Under the pieces are notes generated by a model. The model did no database searches, was not told the DNA's origin, and worked only from the letters and a program-made list of their open reading frames with translations. Positions 36,511-52,562 of a stretch of DNA of 64,000 nucleotides are shown here, one piece after another. Both the position numbers and the translations under genes were made by a program. Each line of letters begins with the position of its first letter. Position 1 is the first letter of the stretch. Source of the stretch: Thermoleptolyngbya sichuanensis A183 (GTDB lineage: Bacteria > Cyanobacteriota > Cyanobacteriia > Elainellales > Elainellaceae); contig NZ_CP053661.1 in assembly GCF_013177315.1 (NCBI RefSeq), forward strand, positions 3,720,001 to 3,784,000. Direction: 5' to 3'.

Positions 36511-36552
36511 GCACCTGAAATAATCGAGTGATTAGAGTGACTTCAGACCAAA

Positions 36553-36624
36553 GCTGGTGACAGGACTCGAACCTGCGACCGGCTGATTACAAATCAGCAG
36601 CTCTACCAACTGAGCTACACCAGC
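36553..36624 (-). tRNA. tRNA-Thr (anticodon TGT)
   Basis: 72 nt on the minus strand. Seven-base acceptor stem GCTGGTG pairs with CACCAGC; D-loop AGCTCAGTTGGTAGAGCT; anticodon stem-loop CTGATTTGTAATCAG with TGT; T-loop GGTTCGAGTCC. No CCA is encoded. Confidence 0.96.
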
Positions 36625-38607: not shown

Positions 38608-38765
38608 GGGGGAAGAGGGAAGAACGAAGAGGGGAGAAGGAAGAACGAAGAGGGGAGAAGGAAGAACGAAGAGGGGAGAACGAAGAGGGAAGAACGAAGA
38701 ATGAAGAGGGAAGAATGAAGAATGAAGAGGGGAGAGCGAAAGGGGAAGGAATGAAGAGGGGAGGG
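38608..38765. repeat. GA-rich tandem repeat between kinase and menD
   Basis: About 155 bp of nearly pure purine on the plus strand, built from GAAGAACGAAGAGG-type units, then AATGAAGAG variants. It occupies the divergent promoter region. It is the reverse complement of the repeats at 10976-11020 and 20036-20110. Long mirror-like purine tracts can form triplex DNA; no function is shown. Confidence 0.88.
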
Positions 38766-38850
38766 GGATGATGGGATGATGGGATGGTCTGGTTGGACAT
38801 CTCTACTCTACTCTTCCCATTGCGCTAACGCCCTCTCTTCCTCTCGCTGC

Positions 38851-41298: not shown

Positions 41299-41498
41299 GA
41301 GTCAGACCTTGTACTGGATGACCAAACGGAATCTGGAGTCACCTTACCACTCAATTGACAAGGCTCTGGAAGTGCGCCCCGACACATTCTGCAAAAGTAG
41401 AACAGTTGCAGATGCCGATTCACCGCGCAAATTCACAGTACCGCACTCAGCCCTAGCTTCTAAGGCTTGATGAAGCTAACCACAAAAATTAGAAAAAC

Positions 41499-41569
41499 TG
41501 GGGCGCTAGGATTCGAACCTAGGAATGGCGGGACCAAAACCCGCTGCCTTACCGCTTGGCGACGCCCCA
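41499..41569 (-). tRNA. tRNA-Gln (anticodon TTG)
   Basis: 71 nt on the minus strand. Acceptor TGGGGCG pairs with CGCCCCA; anticodon stem-loop GCGGGTTTTGGTCCCGC has TTG; T-loop GGTTCGAATCC. The first-base T opposite final A is typical of bacterial tRNA-Gln. Confidence 0.95.
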
Positions 41570-41865
41570 ATGGGGATGGCAGGACGCAGACGCTCTTTCG
41601 TTTCCGTCACAGCTTCATTATTCTAACCAATGGTTCTGCAATTTCGCAAGATTTTTGGAAGCAGACTTTTGGCAGAGCTTGAAACCCTGTGGCCCGCAGC
41701 CCCAAAGTCCCCACCTCCTGTCCCTACCTCTTGTCCCCAAATCTGCGCGATTCAGTGTTGCGTTTTGGGGCGGGCGCATTATCGTTATGAATACTACCCG
41801 CAACAAAAATCCGTCCGCGTCCACCATCCATCTGGCTCTAGGGTGAACCTTGCTTTCGTATCGTC

Positions 41866-44800
41866 ATGTCGCAAACCTACGAACATTTGCTGGCTGAAAA
41901 GAACCTGTTAGACCAAGCGCGGCAGGGAAGTGCGGAGGCGATCGCCACCTTGCTCAACCGCAGCCTCAATCCCAGAGGCATCACGGCAATGGCCCGGCTG
42001 GAGCAAGACACGCTGCATGTTCTCGTGGAAGCCGTGCCCGCGCCGCCGCCAGATCTTGCGTCATTTGTTCATCAGGGCATTGCGGGGCTAGGCATGGCCA
42101 CCGCCAAGACGCTCAAAGTTTACGGCCGGCAGCGCGGCATCAGCCAGATCGGATGGCAGCAGGCGTTTAGTCTGGCGACCCCTTCTGGCTTGGGCGGCGT
42201 GTCTACGGTGATGCAGGGAACCCAGGCGGGAAATGGGTTGCCCGTGACCGAGTTTGAACTGGGGGCGGGCGGACAGCAGGTGATTGCGGGCGATCGCCGC
42301 TTGCAGATGACTCCGCATGGTGCGGTGGTGACGCTCTTGCCGCAGCCCTCAGCGCCCTCGCTGCGATCGCGCACCCTGCCCAGCCCCGAAGCGGCCTGCC
42401 CGCCAATGCCCTACCTGGTGGGGCGCGAAAAGGAATTGGACGGGGCGATCGCCGCGCTGGAACAATCCGTGCCCGTCGAGTTTTATGGCGAATCGGGGCT
42501 GGGCAAAAGCGCCCTGGCCCGCGCCCTGGCCCACCAGCCCTCGGTTTTGGGGCTGGCTGCTGAGGGGCTAGTCTACCGGGTCGTCGGCGAGCAGCCCGTC
42601 GAGGATCTCTACCAGAGCCTATTTGAAGATTTTTTTGAAATTGACGAAGGCATTCCCCACAAGCTGAGCGAGGAAGAGGTGCAGTATGCCCTGCGCCAGA
42701 AGCGGGCGCTGGTGGTGCTAGATGACGTGCGCCTGCCGCCCAACGTGCTGGAACGAATGACGCGCAACCTGACTACGCTGGGCCTAATTGTCACGGCTTC
42801 AGAGCGCCATCTGTGGAACAATAGCCACAGTCTGCCGCTGAGCGGATTGCCCCAGAGCGAAGCGGTGAATCTGCTAGAGCGCTATCTAAACGATCCCCTC
42901 ACGCCGGAGCAGCGATCCAGCGCAGAACAGCTTTGCACGTTGTTGTATGGGCATCCGCAGCGGATTTTGCAGGCGGCAATGCTGGTGCGCGATGGACATT
43001 TGTCCCTGCTGGCCATGATCGAGCAGTTGCAGTCAGGGGCGACGCTAGAAGTGCTGGTGCTGCGGGCGTGCGCCACCTTCCCGGATGCCGAGCGGCGCTG
43101 TCTGGCGGCGCTGGCGGTGTTGGGGGAAGTCCCCGTGCAGACGCACCACCTGGCCGGACTGACGGGCACGACCAATCCCCAGCCAATTGTGGCAACCCTG
43201 GTCAGCCGGGGCTTTTTGAGCAGTGACGGGGTGCGCCACACGCTGGCAGGAAATTTGCTGGCTCCCCTGCGGCAGTTCTGGAACCTGGAACAGTGGGTGC
43301 AGCCGGTGGTGCGCCATTTTCTGCACTGGGTCCAGCAGCAGGCTCCCATCAAAGGGGCGCTGTTGCCAGATTTGCCGCTGCTGATGCGGGTGGTAAACCT
43401 GGCTGCTGAAGCAGAACAGTGGAAAGAAGTCGTGCAGTTTGCCCGTGTGATGGACGGCCCGCTAGCGCTGGGGCGACGTTGGGGCGCGTGGGAGCAGGTG
43501 TGGGATGCGGGGCTGCGGGCGGCAGAACATTTGGGCAATTCCCAGGCGATCGCCCTGGCCCACCACCAGCTAGGCACCCGCGCCCTCTGCCTGGGCGACA
43601 GCTTTGCCGCGATTAACTATCTCAACCAGGCGCTGCGCCTGCGGGAAGCCGGGGGCAACGAAACCGCCGCCGCCGCCTCGCGCCACAACCTCAGCCTGCT
43701 GGTGGCTCCGATGCAGCACCTCCAGCCCCAGCCCCAGCAGCCGCCCCAGTATCAGCCCCCGCCGCAATATCCGCCGCAATCCCCACCCCAATATCCAGGG
43801 CCCCAATATCCCTCGCAGATCCAGCCGCCCCAGCCCCAACCGCCCCAATACCCAGCCCCAGAGCCGCAGCCCCAACTGCCGCCGCTGCCAGCCCAGCCTA
43901 CGCCCGCGCCCCATCCGCCCTACCAGCCGCCGCCGCCCATGCCGGGAACCTCCGACCCCGAAGCAGAGGCAGCCTCCTCGCGCTTTTCGCCGCTGCTGTT
44001 GGGGGGACTGGTGGCCTCGCTGCTGCTGGGGGCGCTGGCGGCCTGGCTGATGGTGCGCGATCGCCCGTCCTTCAGTGTCAATCCCAGCAGTCTCACCTTT
44101 TCCAACCAAACGGTTCACACCAGCAGCCAGCCCCAAACCGTGACCCTGCAAAATACAGGCAGTCAGGCGCTACGGCTGGGACGGATTACACCCGTCGGGG
44201 CCAATCCAACGGATTTTCAAGTTGCGGAGCAATGCACCCGCGCTCCACTGCCGCCGGCCCAGTCCTGTACGATCCAGGTCACGTTTACGCCCCAGGGCCA
44301 GGGCGATCGCATTGCGGATCTGGCCTTCAATGACATTACGGGCGTGACCCGCTACACCATTCCCCTGCGCGGCAATAGCCCCAGTGCCATTGGCGGCAGC
44401 CCCAGCCCCGGCAGTCCGTCGCCTACGCCCCCGGTCAATCCTGATGTGGCGCTGCGGTTCAACCCCGGCACGCTGGACTTTGGCGAGTGGCAGGTCAATG
44501 CTCAAACCGGCCAGCGGACGATCGCCCTAGTCAACAACAGCGCCGTTCCCGTGACGATTCAACTGGTGCGGGCCGATGGGCAGGCCCGCAGCGACTTTTT
44601 AGTAAGCGAGCAGTGTACAGGCGGGCCCCTGGCCCCCGGACAAAGCTGCCCGATTTTTGTCGCCTTTCGCCCCACGGCCCCGGGCCAGCGCACGGCGAAT
44701 ATCAATGTGATCGACACCAGCAATCGCCCGTGGAACGTGCCGCTGACGGGCTACGGCGTGGCCACTGCGCCCCAAACGCCCACCCTCAGCATTACGCCCG

Positions 44801-45894
44801 GCCGGGTAGATTTTGGCTCTGTCACGGTTCGCAATACTAGCCGCGAAGAGCGCTTCTTTTTGCAAAGCACGGGGGGCGTGCCCATCCAGCTTCGCAATAT
44901 CAGCATCGAAAGCCGGACGAGTGATTTTCGACTGACGCGCAACACCTGCCCCAGTGACTTGCCGCCGGGGGGCCGCTGCGAGGTGGGCGTGGTGTTTAGC
45001 CCAGAGGGGGAGGGCGATCGCCGCGCTGCCCTGCGGTTCGACAGCAACGACTTTCGGGGCACAGCCCGCGTCATGCTCATGGGTCAGGGTGTGCCGCCTG
45101 CGGTGCCTGCGCTGCGGGTCAACCCGCTATCCATTGACTTTGGCAGCATCGAGCTAGAGCGGGCCAGCGCCCCCCGTGCCGTCACCATTAGCAATATGGG
45201 CACCGCGCCGCTGCTATTGGGCGATATCCGGGTCAATGGCAACCCAGACTTTGTGAGCGATCGCAACTCCTCCATCGGCGCGGAGTGTTCCAACCTCTCG
45301 CTGCGGCCGGGGCAAAGCTGCGGCTTTAACGTCGTCTTTATTCCGCAGGTAGAAGGGTCGCGCAACGCCAATATCGTGATTCCGACAAACACTGGCTCCA
45401 CCTCTGTCGCGCTGCGGGGCAACGGCTCGGTGCAGCGCTTCCCCACCCTCAGCATCCAGCCCACCAGCATCGATTTTGACAATCAGACCATCGGCAACAT
45501 GAGTGCGCCCCGCTCTGTGACCCTGCGAAACAACGGCAATGCGCCCCTGATCCTGGGAAATCTGGGGCTGAGCGGGGAAAACCCGTTTGACTTTGCCACC
45601 TCGAACGACAGCAACTTTGCGATTAGCTGCACCAACGTAACGCTGGCTCCGGGTGAGGTTTGCACCGTCCAGATAATGTTCAACCCAACGGAGCCGGGAT
45701 ATCGCACGGCCCAGTTGGTGATTCCCCACAACGCCCCCAACAGCCCTGGACGGGTCAGGGTCGGCGGCGTGGGGCAGGCCGCGATTACGCCGCTCCCGGA
45801 ACCGCTCCCCGATCCACAGCCTGAACCACCTGGCCCGCCCCTCCGACCGCTGCCTGTGCCCCTACCACAGCCCTTCAACCCGCTGTCGCGCTAG
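41866..45894 (+). CDS. STAND/NB-ARC-like ATPase fused to five ASH domains through a membrane helix
   Basis: 1342 residues, unusual architecture. Residues 1-105 form a domain seen at the start of several cyanobacterial proteins (LLDQARQGSAEAIATLLNRSLNPRGITAMARLEQDTLHV). A P-loop ATPase of STAND type follows: Walker A GESGLGKS at 208-215 and Walker B ALVVLDDV near 282. Winged-helix and TPR-like helices run to about 610. A Pro/Gln-rich stretch (619-699) leads to one transmembrane helix (about 711-729). Then come five repeats of about 100 residues of ASH / choice-of-anchor-D type, each with a strand ending in LxFxxQTVxxxSxPRxVTLxNxG-like motifs, a C-x(8-10)-C pair and GDR/ NPTEPGYR. A short Pro-rich tail ends the protein. 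STAND proteins are molecular switches; the outward ASH domains may sense or bind something in the periplasm. Function is unknown. Confidence 0.85.
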   Translation: MSQTYEHLLAEKNLLDQARQGSAEAIATLLNRSLNPRGITAMARLEQDTLHVLVEAVPAPPPDLASFVHQGIAGLGMATAKTLKVYGRQRGISQIGWQQAFSLATPSGLGGVSTVMQGTQAGNGLPVTEFELGAGGQQVIAGDRRLQMTPHGAVVTLLPQPSAPSLRSRTLPSPEAACPPMPYLVGREKELDGAIAALEQSVPVEFYGESGLGKSALARALAHQPSVLGLAAEGLVYRVVGEQPVEDLYQSLFEDFFEIDEGIPHKLSEEEVQYALRQKRALVVLDDVRLPPNVLERMTRNLTTLGLIVTASERHLWNNSHSLPLSGLPQSEAVNLLERYLNDPLTPEQRSSAEQLCTLLYGHPQRILQAAMLVRDGHLSLLAMIEQLQSGATLEVLVLRACATFPDAERRCLAALAVLGEVPVQTHHLAGLTGTTNPQPIVATLVSRGFLSSDGVRHTLAGNLLAPLRQFWNLEQWVQPVVRHFLHWVQQQAPIKGALLPDLPLLMRVVNLAAEAEQWKEVVQFARVMDGPLALGRRWGAWEQVWDAGLRAAEHLGNSQAIALAHHQLGTRALCLGDSFAAINYLNQALRLREAGGNETAAAASRHNLSLLVAPMQHLQPQPQQPPQYQPPPQYPPQSPPQYPGPQYPSQIQPPQPQPPQYPAPEPQPQLPPLPAQPTPAPHPPYQPPPPMPGTSDPEAEAASSRFSPLLLGGLVASLLLGALAAWLMVRDRPSFSVNPSSLTFSNQTVHTSSQPQTVTLQNTGSQALRLGRITPVGANPTDFQVAEQCTRAPLPPAQSCTIQVTFTPQGQGDRIADLAFNDITGVTRYTIPLRGNSPSAIGGSPSPGSPSPTPPVNPDVALRFNPGTLDFGEWQVNAQTGQRTIALVNNSAVPVTIQLVRADGQARSDFLVSEQCTGGPLAPGQSCPIFVAFRPTAPGQRTANINVIDTSNRPWNVPLTGYGVATAPQTPTLSITPGRVDFGSVTVRNTSREERFFLQSTGGVPIQLRNISIESRTSDFRLTRNTCPSDLPPGGRCEVGVVFSPEGEGDRRAALRFDSNDFRGTARVMLMGQGVPPAVPALRVNPLSIDFGSIELERASAPRAVTISNMGTAPLLLGDIRVNGNPDFVSDRNSSIGAECSNLSLRPGQSCGFNVVFIPQVEGSRNANIVIPTNTGSTSVALRGNGSVQRFPTLSIQPTSIDFDNQTIGNMSAPRSVTLRNNGNAPLILGNLGLSGENPFDFATSNDSNFAISCTNVTLAPGEVCTVQIMFNPTEPGYRTAQLVIPHNAPNSPGRVRVGGVGQAAITPLPEPLPDPQPEPPGPPLRPLPVPLPQPFNPLSR

Positions 45895-51247: not shown

Positions 51248-52562
51248 CTGACTGCCTGACACATCTTTTTATGCGGACTGCCCGGGTGTCGGCTGGCAGC
51301 ACAAGGATTGAATTCTAGAAAACCAAATGCGGTCATAATAGTGGGCTTCAGCTTTTTTAGAGGCAAAACAGGGTTCAGGGTCAACGGTAAATAGGGCAAT
51401 CAGCTGAAGCAGTGTTCGCCCTTTATTGACGGCACCCTTGAGCCAGCGCAAACCTATGTTGAGATAGCTAATCCCTCGCCTCCAGTGCGGGTCAACCTGG
51501 CAGCGTAGCCCATCGAGTTGCACCGCCATGCCCTGGGTCGTGCCATCAAGGATAGCGATCGCCGCGACCAGATAGAGGCGTTCGAGAGCCGGAGCGGAGC
51601 GGATGCCGGAAGCTTCTAACTCAAAGACACCAGATTTAGAATCGAGGAAAAGCTCCTCGACTCGAAAGCGGAGAGCATATTGCCACAGGGTATTGAGGGA
51701 GGGAGACTCATCAGTGATGACCGCCCAGGGTTCCTCGACGCCTTTGACATGAGCCAGCACCAAATTGCAGCGCCAGCGCCCCTCGCTCCAGATTCCCACC
51801 CCTTCATAGAGTCGAGCTTCACCTTTGGGAGGCCACAGATAGCCTACCTTAACAGGATGACGGCGCGGACCCTGCACCACTACGTCACTGGGCAAGCGTA
51901 AACAATAGTGCCAGCGACTTTGGCTTAGCCACTCCAGCAGGTCATGGTTAGCAAACCCGCGGTCGGCTAACACCATCACATCGGGGTACGACTGCAACAG
52001 CCGATGGGCTAACCGCAGCATGGGGAGGTATCGCTTCGTGCTGACGGTGGCACTGGGATGCTCCAAAACCCGCCACAGCAGCGGCACCGCTCGTCCGCAA
52101 CAGGTAACCGTCAGGTGAATCCTGCAGTAGCGATTCCACAACACCGTCGTATCGAGCGCCAGGTAAAGCCGCCGACCTTGCCAGCGATGGATGGCGGCTA
52201 GCACCAGCGGCACGTACAGACTTTTGACCCGCACCCGGCGATTGCCTAGGAAGCGCTGCCACCGGCGTTCGGTGCTTTGCGCCTGACGGGCCCGACTGGG
52301 CACATAGGCTTCCCACTGCGGCAGGCTCAACCGACCGCTGCACACCAGGGCCGTCACCATCCACGCCAGCGCTTTGAGGTGGCGCAGGTCGCGGGCATTA
52401 CTGGATTGACGCAATAACGACAGCACTTGATCATAGAGGCAGGTGGTGGCTGGCATGATACAGACCCTGAGATGACGCAAATTTCAGCGTCTCATGTCAG
52501 CTCACCTTTTCCCTCTGTTGACGAGGTCTCAACTCTTTCAACCACTTGTGTCAGGCAGTCAG
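51248..52562 (-). mobile_element. IS4-like insertion sequence
   Basis: 1315 bp with perfect 16-bp inverted ends CTGACTGCCTGACACA / TGTGTCAGGCAGTCAG. The flanks (GTATTGACC and GTGTACACC) are not a clean duplication, so recombination or decay at one end is possible. The 161-bp MITE at 7039-7199 shares its end core. Confidence 0.85.
51269..52456 (-). CDS. IS4-family-like transposase
   Basis: About 395 residues from the ATG at 52456 (MPATTCLYDQVLSLL). DDE residues: YLALDTTVLWN, VMVLADRGFANHDLL and, after a long beta insert, RFRVEELFLDSKSGVFELEASG, which resembles the Y-R-E-K region of IS4 families. It has no internal stops and the terminal repeats are intact, so it may be active. A TTG 24 bp upstream is an alternative start. 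Confidence 0.85.
   Translation of the reverse strand: MPATTCLYDQVLSLLRQSSNARDLRHLKALAWMVTALVCSGRLSLPQWEAYVPSRARQAQSTERRWQRFLGNRRVRVKSLYVPLVLAAIHRWQGRRLYLALDTTVLWNRYCRIHLTVTCCGRAVPLLWRVLEHPSATVSTKRYLPMLRLAHRLLQSYPDVMVLADRGFANHDLLEWLSQSRWHYCLRLPSDVVVQGPRRHPVKVGYLWPPKGEARLYEGVGIWSEGRWRCNLVLAHVKGVEEPWAVITDESPSLNTLWQYALRFRVEELFLDSKSGVFELEASGIRSAPALERLYLVAAIAILDGTTQGMAVQLDGLRCQVDPHWRRGISYLNIGLRWLKGAVNKGRTLLQLIALFTVDPEPCFASKKAEAHYYDRIWFSRIQSLCCQPTPGQSA

Follow-up and report, generated by a model that had tools for sequence, protein, structure and literature searches.

STAND (signal transduction ATPases with numerous domains) and NLR (nucleotide-binding leucine-rich repeat) switches are generally treated as intracellular sensors. 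In this report, we describe a gene in a 64,000-nucleotide stretch of the cyanobacterium Thermoleptolyngbya sichuanensis A183 (contig NZ_CP053661.1, positions 3,720,001 to 3,784,000; hereafter the window, whose numbering is used throughout) that joins such a switch, through a single membrane helix, to five tandem ASH (ASPM-SPD-2-Hydin) domains. The gene occupies window positions 41866..45894 on the + strand, like all of its parts given below, and was called as an open reading frame (ORF) of 1342 residues, in line with eight complete homologues from other genomes in which the same domain order is repeated. We consider the product to be, on balance, probably a single-pass membrane receptor of the NB-ARC/Apaf-1-like STAND class, whose ASH array senses a feature of the periplasmic envelope. 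An initial annotation, made from the sequence alone, had called the arrangement unfamiliar as a described system and had proposed looking for it elsewhere; the eight homologues answer the second point, and on the first we found no description of STAND-helix-ASH or STAND-helix-PASTA proteins in the literature on membrane-bound or ectodomain-bearing STAND/NLR proteins, our coverage of which was partial, so that this absence is weak. If the proposal is true, a conserved bacterial family with a variable domain across the membrane would join the logic of a cell-surface receptor to that of the apoptosome.

The inner half of the protein carries a STAND switch. Its core (residues ~180-475, 42403..43290) was delimited by Pfam, the predicted structure and fold matches, and contains both a Walker A motif (GESGLGKS, residues 208-215, 42487..42510) and a Walker B motif of the hhhhDD form found in the NB-ARC/AP-ATPase clade (LVVLDD, residues 282-287, 42709..42726); NB-ARC was matched in Pfam with an E value of 8e-6 when the whole protein was searched and of 1.9e-6 when the search was limited to the core. 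An AlphaFold2 model of residues 1-840, which takes in the first ASH domain but ends before ASH2-5, was built from 38 aligned sequences and reached a mean predicted local distance difference test score (pLDDT) of 83.4. In this model the nucleotide-binding domain is followed by ARC helices (347-402), a winged-helix region (407-471) and a helical solenoid (475-613), the core and the solenoid both being confident, and then by disorder (residues ~616-719), a lone helix (713-731) and a confident beta sandwich (736-838). The solenoid (residues 476-613, 43291..43704) is TPR-like and bears an HQLGTRAL signature, although TPR_12 itself was matched weakly and under its cut-off (E 0.02); the Pro/Gln-rich linker behind it (residues ~616-708, 43711..43989) has a pLDDT below 50 nearly throughout. 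The P-loop ATPase, the TPR-like helices and the Pro/Gln linker of the initial annotation are thus borne out, and so are the STAND helical domains that it had expected of a structure prediction.

Foldseek placed Apaf-1 (E 6e-14), the STAND-TPR protein 6mfv, CED-4 and plant NLRs at the top of the matches to the model, and CEP192 and HYDIN at the top for its ASH part. VIA gave its best match to 6mfv (Z 23.9 over 342 residues), and aligned Apaf-1 (3sfz) with a Z of 22.3 over 408 residues at a root-mean-square deviation (rmsd) of 4.0. The order and fold of nucleotide-binding domain, ARC and winged helix are therefore those of the Apaf-1, CED-4 and plant NLR ATPases (3sfz, 1z6t, 8rfh), a class of soluble or peripheral proteins. 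In contrast to them, the window protein adds a membrane helix and an outer ASH array after the solenoid, and its N-terminal domain has no CARD, coiled-coil (CC) or TIR match in Pfam. The protein of 6mfv, by its title, also has STAND followed by TPR, but only this part aligns.

The membrane helix (residues ~710-731, 43993..44058) is the only one in the protein: hydropathy showed one peak at residue 710 (mean 2.25) and nothing else above 1.6. A single hydrophobic peak after the solenoid was found in all nine complete proteins, i.e. the window protein and its eight homologues, the weakest being 1.64 in L035 (the same protein as L054, which was missed at a cut-off of 1.7). In the model the helix has low confidence like the linker (pLDDT block means of 43 and 56) and is not packed against any domain, so that the segment lies outside any globular domain and the single membrane helix proposed initially holds. 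Beyond it, five ASH stretches within residues ~734-1303 were matched by Pfam (Cep192_D4, 5e-44; HYDIN-like Ig, 4e-37; ASH, 3e-27) and by NCBIfam (choice_anch_D, 2e-87), and their approximate bounds are 44068..44379 (ASH1), 44443..44760 (ASH2), 44779..45090 (ASH3), 45109..45432 (ASH4) and 45445..45774 (ASH5), followed by a C-terminal tail that is Pro-rich in the translation (45775..45891). ASH1, which lies within the model, has the CEP192 type of fold, as VIA aligned it with the SPD-2 domain of CEP192 (7ptb) over 103 residues (Z 13.8, rmsd 2.2), and the five tandem ASH domains of the initial annotation are confirmed. The ten cysteines of the ectodomain all form pairs spaced 10 or 11 residues apart, one pair to each unit (790/801, 917/928, 1028/1038, 1141/1152 and 1255/1266). 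The ASH units share profile matches, and ASH1 the fold, with CEP192 and HYDIN, but differ from them in that each has a Cys pair and that a membrane helix connects the array to a STAND switch. In six of the eight homologues all outer cysteines are paired at a spacing of 11 or 12 residues, which makes five or six units. L037 has three such pairs and L038 two, and the more widely spaced cysteines that come after them probably represent, to judge from the spacing, other repeats.

The window protein is conserved and under selection, and its outer part evolves no faster than its core. In a comparison of the window protein with five of the eight complete homologues (15 pairs; L037, L038 and L041 left out), mean identity was 46.0% for the ATPase, 54.3% for the solenoid, 46.7% for the ASH region and 25.6% for the linker, and individual ASH units were conserved in place at 43-52%. 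The ratio of nonsynonymous to synonymous substitution rates (dN/dS) between the window gene and its sister J069 was 0.13 over 665 codons, which, owing to the extent of the sister's contig, represent the inner half only. A search with the whole protein gave matches in 56 of 60 relatives, among the matches listed mostly to the N-terminal domain; similarly, the aligned inner half matched 226 of 388 cyanobacterial genomes at E <=1e-20, often via the N-terminal domain alone, and in 35 of the 388 the best match reached E <=1e-40, with some of these spanning only part of the STAND core. In genome G032, two overlapping ORFs (L040, 3348-5732 and 5657-7792) take the place of a single gene, the break falling right after the membrane helix; in the same genus the gene of G026 is likewise in pieces and that of G017 is intact, and the split in G032 is either a sequencing error or real.

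A wider family keeps the STAND-solenoid-helix part and varies what follows it. It spans Chloroflexota, an armatimonadete and two actinomycetes, and includes loci from Thermoflexia (L058), Anaerolineae (L059), Anaerolineales (L060), an armatimonadete (L062) and Geodermatophilus (L074). According to Pfam, the part after the helix consists of ASH in L060 and L062, and in L074 of eight PASTA domains together with two or three stretches of ASH; the only matches in L058 were weak Ig/Fn3-like ones under the threshold, and L059 had a single match, itself borderline. The Chloroflexota members G710 and G939 have PAN above cut-off together with a sub-threshold match to the 3-keto-disaccharide hydrolase family, which may mark a lectin-like domain, and in the cyanobacterium G188 the outer part combines ASH with cadherin-like repeats. 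The exchange of the outer part for PASTA, PAN or cadherin-like domains supports a ligand-binding role for it. The N-terminal side varies as well: L072 (627-3644) begins with a trypsin-like protease by Pfam, L073 (9278-12406) looks similar by eye, and L059 (8189-13622) begins with zinc ribbons and has as its downstream neighbour a caspase with a zinc ribbon and, on its other side, a gene that resembles a kinase-FHA gene by eye. An N-terminal slot filled by a protease, by caspase-linked zinc ribbons or by the motif described below is as expected of an output side.

These comparisons also bear on an explanation in which the ASH array is a positioning tether or adhesin and sensing is left to the TPR solenoid in the cytoplasm, as it is in soluble STAND proteins. 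STAND proteins commonly sense through TPR solenoids (PMC10907252), the solenoid is the best conserved part of the window protein, and some relatives have no ectodomain; however, each ASH unit is held in place across the orthologues compared, and other binding modules replace the outer part in relatives. We therefore regard a mere tether as unlikely.

Several relatives have, near the receptor gene, a second gene for a small conserved domain of ~100 residues, for which we coin the label HPD. A comparison of the neighbours of the window gene and 13 other loci showed no gene recurring in more than two loci, apart from a cluster in which kinases, TPR proteins and HPD were mixed and which was divided by eye. 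HPD was seen near three receptors in three phyla, adjoining the receptor in L033 and L074 and lying one gene further, fused to kinases, in L060; because it was as neighbours that these three cases were noticed, they cannot count towards linkage. A profile of the three sequences matched two of 60 relatives, including G013, which had contributed to the profile, and 18 of 388 cyanobacteria (5 strong and 13 partial matches), and a profile of seven sequences matched two of 296 genomes in the class of G397 and four of 301 in the phylum of G390. Eight strong matches lie outside the profile that found them (G022, G176, G188, G349, G388, G498, G710 and G939), and six of these directly adjoin a STAND-helix gene; the HPD gene of G022 adjoins a helix-ASH ORF that runs off the contig, and that of G176 lies ~430 kb away in a genome that holds the receptor. 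In the 301-genome sample the receptor core (E <=1e-40) occurs in exactly the four HPD genomes, for which the chance is 3e-9 assuming independent genomes, and since the genomes are related the figures for co-occurrence overstate this independence. Among cyanobacteria, all five genomes with strong HPD belong to the 35 with a receptor-core match, and 30 of the 35 are without strong HPD. The ten genomes with named STAND relatives include three with strong HPD (G388, G390 and G397), one with a partial match (G396) and one with a fragment near a contig start (G391), and in the other five, including the Anaerolineae genome G389 that carries L059 and is outside the 301-genome sample, HPD was not found. 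The 13 partial cyanobacterial matches, all of which were excluded from the strong set, fall within HPD positions 3-84, and 12 are in ORFs of 643-716 residues; in the two inspected (L165 and L166), the start of HPD stands near the C-terminus of another family, ATPase-like by eye, and Pfam on L165 gave only TPR matches above noise.

Complete HPD proteins start with a GQxAxG-type motif that resembles the motif ahead of the receptor ATPase, and the two motifs co-vary. In the window protein, this conserved GQ-motif element (residues ~136-170, 42271..42375), defined by the alignment, forms ordered strands with high pLDDT in the model (138-168), a result neither for nor against amyloid. We compared the motifs in the eight of 11 strong HPD cases that have one on both sides, leaving out G013 (a short HPD ORF without the motif), G022 (its STAND part beyond the contig end) and G390 (a motif unlike the search pattern). 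True pairs of HPD and receptor gave a BLOSUM sum of 465 versus a shuffled mean of 329, a value reached by 5 of 40320 permutations, and an identity sum of 91 versus 72, reached by 21 of 40320; under permutation within phyla, BLOSUM was as high in 1 of 72 (the observed order itself) and identity in 4 of 72. This partner and its co-varying motif make the signalling interface directly testable in two-gene systems of several phyla.

A comparable design is known from bacterial NLR-effector pairs, in which, according to PMC7889193, an amyloid motif (BASS) is common to both members and stands, in BELL effectors, at the C-terminus after a helical domain. Likewise, adjacent STAND and small-protein genes in our relatives share a short motif that co-varies within pairs, but the HPD motif is N-terminal, a membrane helix and outer domains set the receptor apart, no such pair occurs in the window genome, and the motif of the relatives is a candidate amyloid by analogy only. 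The hydrophobic stretch of HPD is moderate (19-residue maxima of 1.2-2.1), and from these features we infer that HPD may form amyloid and act on the membrane. Taken further, exchangeable outer domains (ASH, PASTA, PAN, cadherin-like) would define a bacterial transmembrane NLR-like class that drives a STAND ring on the inner side of the membrane, with homotypic, possibly amyloid-like templating from the GQ motif to a dedicated HPD protein acting on the membrane, and in the window branch the receptor would have been retained while some other output took the place of HPD; this extended model is possible but in our judgement doubtful. Among other systems, GAP1-N2 GTPase conflict systems include transmembrane and cadherin domains (PMC7159879) and so likewise join an NTPase to membrane segments and outer domains, but those GTPases are of a different family than the window STAND; one NACHT-lectin target is predicted to be periplasmic (PMC10907252), and echinoderm NLRC4 has been described with Ig and NACHT domains (PMC8699970).

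The window protein begins with an alpha/beta domain (residues ~9-105, 41890..42180) that is cyanobacterial and has no Pfam family. This domain, the GQ element, the non-cyanobacterial family and the partner gene had all gone unnoticed in the initial annotation. A separate model of the domain from 69 sequences (pLDDT 85.1) has helices and strands in the order aabbabb; no PDB match at E 0.001 or better was obtained, and the best VIA Z was 7.5. TRADD-N and effector-associated domains (PMC8195603, PMC7159879) came into consideration as candidate identities. The domain is common to many cyanobacterial membrane and envelope proteins, and among 34 other carriers chosen from 68 ORFs the Pfam domains included PGA_cap (4), Pilin_GH (4), PrsW (3) and EcsC (3). 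Its presence in capsule-synthesis (PGA_cap) and pilin-like (Pilin_GH) proteins would fit a non-signalling assembly platform, whose ATPase helps to build or export an envelope structure containing ASH domains; however, the model is most like signalling switches, and the N-terminal sides of relatives are protease, caspase-linked or HPD-linked, so that we consider such a platform very unlikely.

For the receptor that we favour, we propose the following mode of action. The five ASH domains, in the periplasm, would bind or clamp a conserved envelope component, and the flexible linker and the TPR solenoid would connect them to the ATPase on the inner side of the membrane. At rest, this ATPase may be closed and ADP-like. 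A change outside would cluster the receptors, whereupon the ATPases would exchange nucleotide and assemble into a ring, uniting the N-terminal modules as the output. Where a relative has an HPD gene, clustering of the GQ motifs may recruit the HPD protein via its matching motif. The window lineage has no HPD, and there the likeliest output or adaptor would be the cyanobacterial domain at the N-terminus. In favour of this receptor we count the model and its fold matches, the helix in nine of nine proteins, the paired cysteines, the exchanged outer domains, the varied N-terminal sides of relatives, the purifying selection on the inner half and the equal conservation of ATPase and ectodomain.

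Several observations weigh against it. Lys and Arg residues flanking the helix number 16 before and 16 after over the nine proteins, which gives no orientation signal, and the inner half of the window protein has five cysteines, two of which (402 and 412) are also ten apart. The proteins of L148, L150, L151 and L156 end soon after the helix without an outer domain, and the Scytonema/Fischerella group (L063-L071) has no helix at the cut-off of 1.7, although a hydrophobic stretch is visible in L063, L064 and L067. Most of the domains recognisable in the 34 carriers of the N-terminal domain point to the envelope or a membrane, and none is a clear signalling output; the HPD profile found no HPD in the window genome nor in the sister genome (85% complete); and the GQ motif of the window protein has no other good match in its genome (best other E 0.8).

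PASTA and PAN are extracellular binding modules, and ASH/cadherin-like parts are likewise extracellular. Because the Lys/Arg count is uninformative, PASTA and PAN behind the helix in relatives are the best evidence that the post-helix end of the family probably lies outside. The initial annotation had placed the sensor across the membrane: the exchange of outer domains supports an outer ligand-binding part, while the count of charged residues leaves the orientation unsupported. It had also read the Cys pairs as consistent with an oxidising exterior; a pair is indeed present in each ASH unit, but the spacing of residues 402 and 412 means that pairing alone cannot prove the oxidising side. Cyanobacteria possess an outer membrane, and the ASH domains would therefore face the periplasm (or the thylakoid lumen) rather than the open cell surface.

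A rival explanation is an immune receptor proper: the ASH array would detect phage, a predator or non-self contact in the envelope, and the STAND ring would trigger growth arrest or cell death. The nearest solved structures are apoptosis and immunity switches, and the relative L059 adjoins a caspase. When seven proteins of relatives were compared with PADLOC, only this caspase gene matched strongly (1e-14); the matches of the two HPD proteins to PDC-M14B were weak (2e-4 and 1e-3), as were TPR or mad8 matches of three receptors (2e-3 to 8e-3). Against an immune receptor, the window protein matched none of the PADLOC-DB families at E up to 1, the ORFs beside its gene are housekeeping-like, as judged by eye from the ORF list alone, its genome is without HPD, and its ectodomain does not evolve faster than the ATPase (46.7% versus 46.0% identity). 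The phage sensing suggested by the initial annotation is therefore not upheld for the window protein, and, since an outer membrane intervenes, the ligand is more likely to be periplasmic than a phage met directly at the cell surface. Several relatives stand beside HPD, whose hydrophobic stretch and co-varying motif resemble the NLR-effector pairs of PMC7889193. Overall, we regard an immune receptor as rather improbable, and an immune function of the window member is possible but not supported.

Some further features were observed around the gene. A tRNA-Gln (ttg) gene lies ~300 bp upstream (41497-41570, - strand) and a tRNA-Thr gene at 36552-36624; a tandem array of short period (38612-38760) stands immediately ahead of the ORF at 38776, and an ORF of 403 residues on the - strand (51269-52480) is transposase-like by eye. 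In two homologous loci, related proteins of ~94 residues with several cysteines are encoded downstream of the receptor (L033, 4160-4444; L056, 14553-14834), and this pair may be real.

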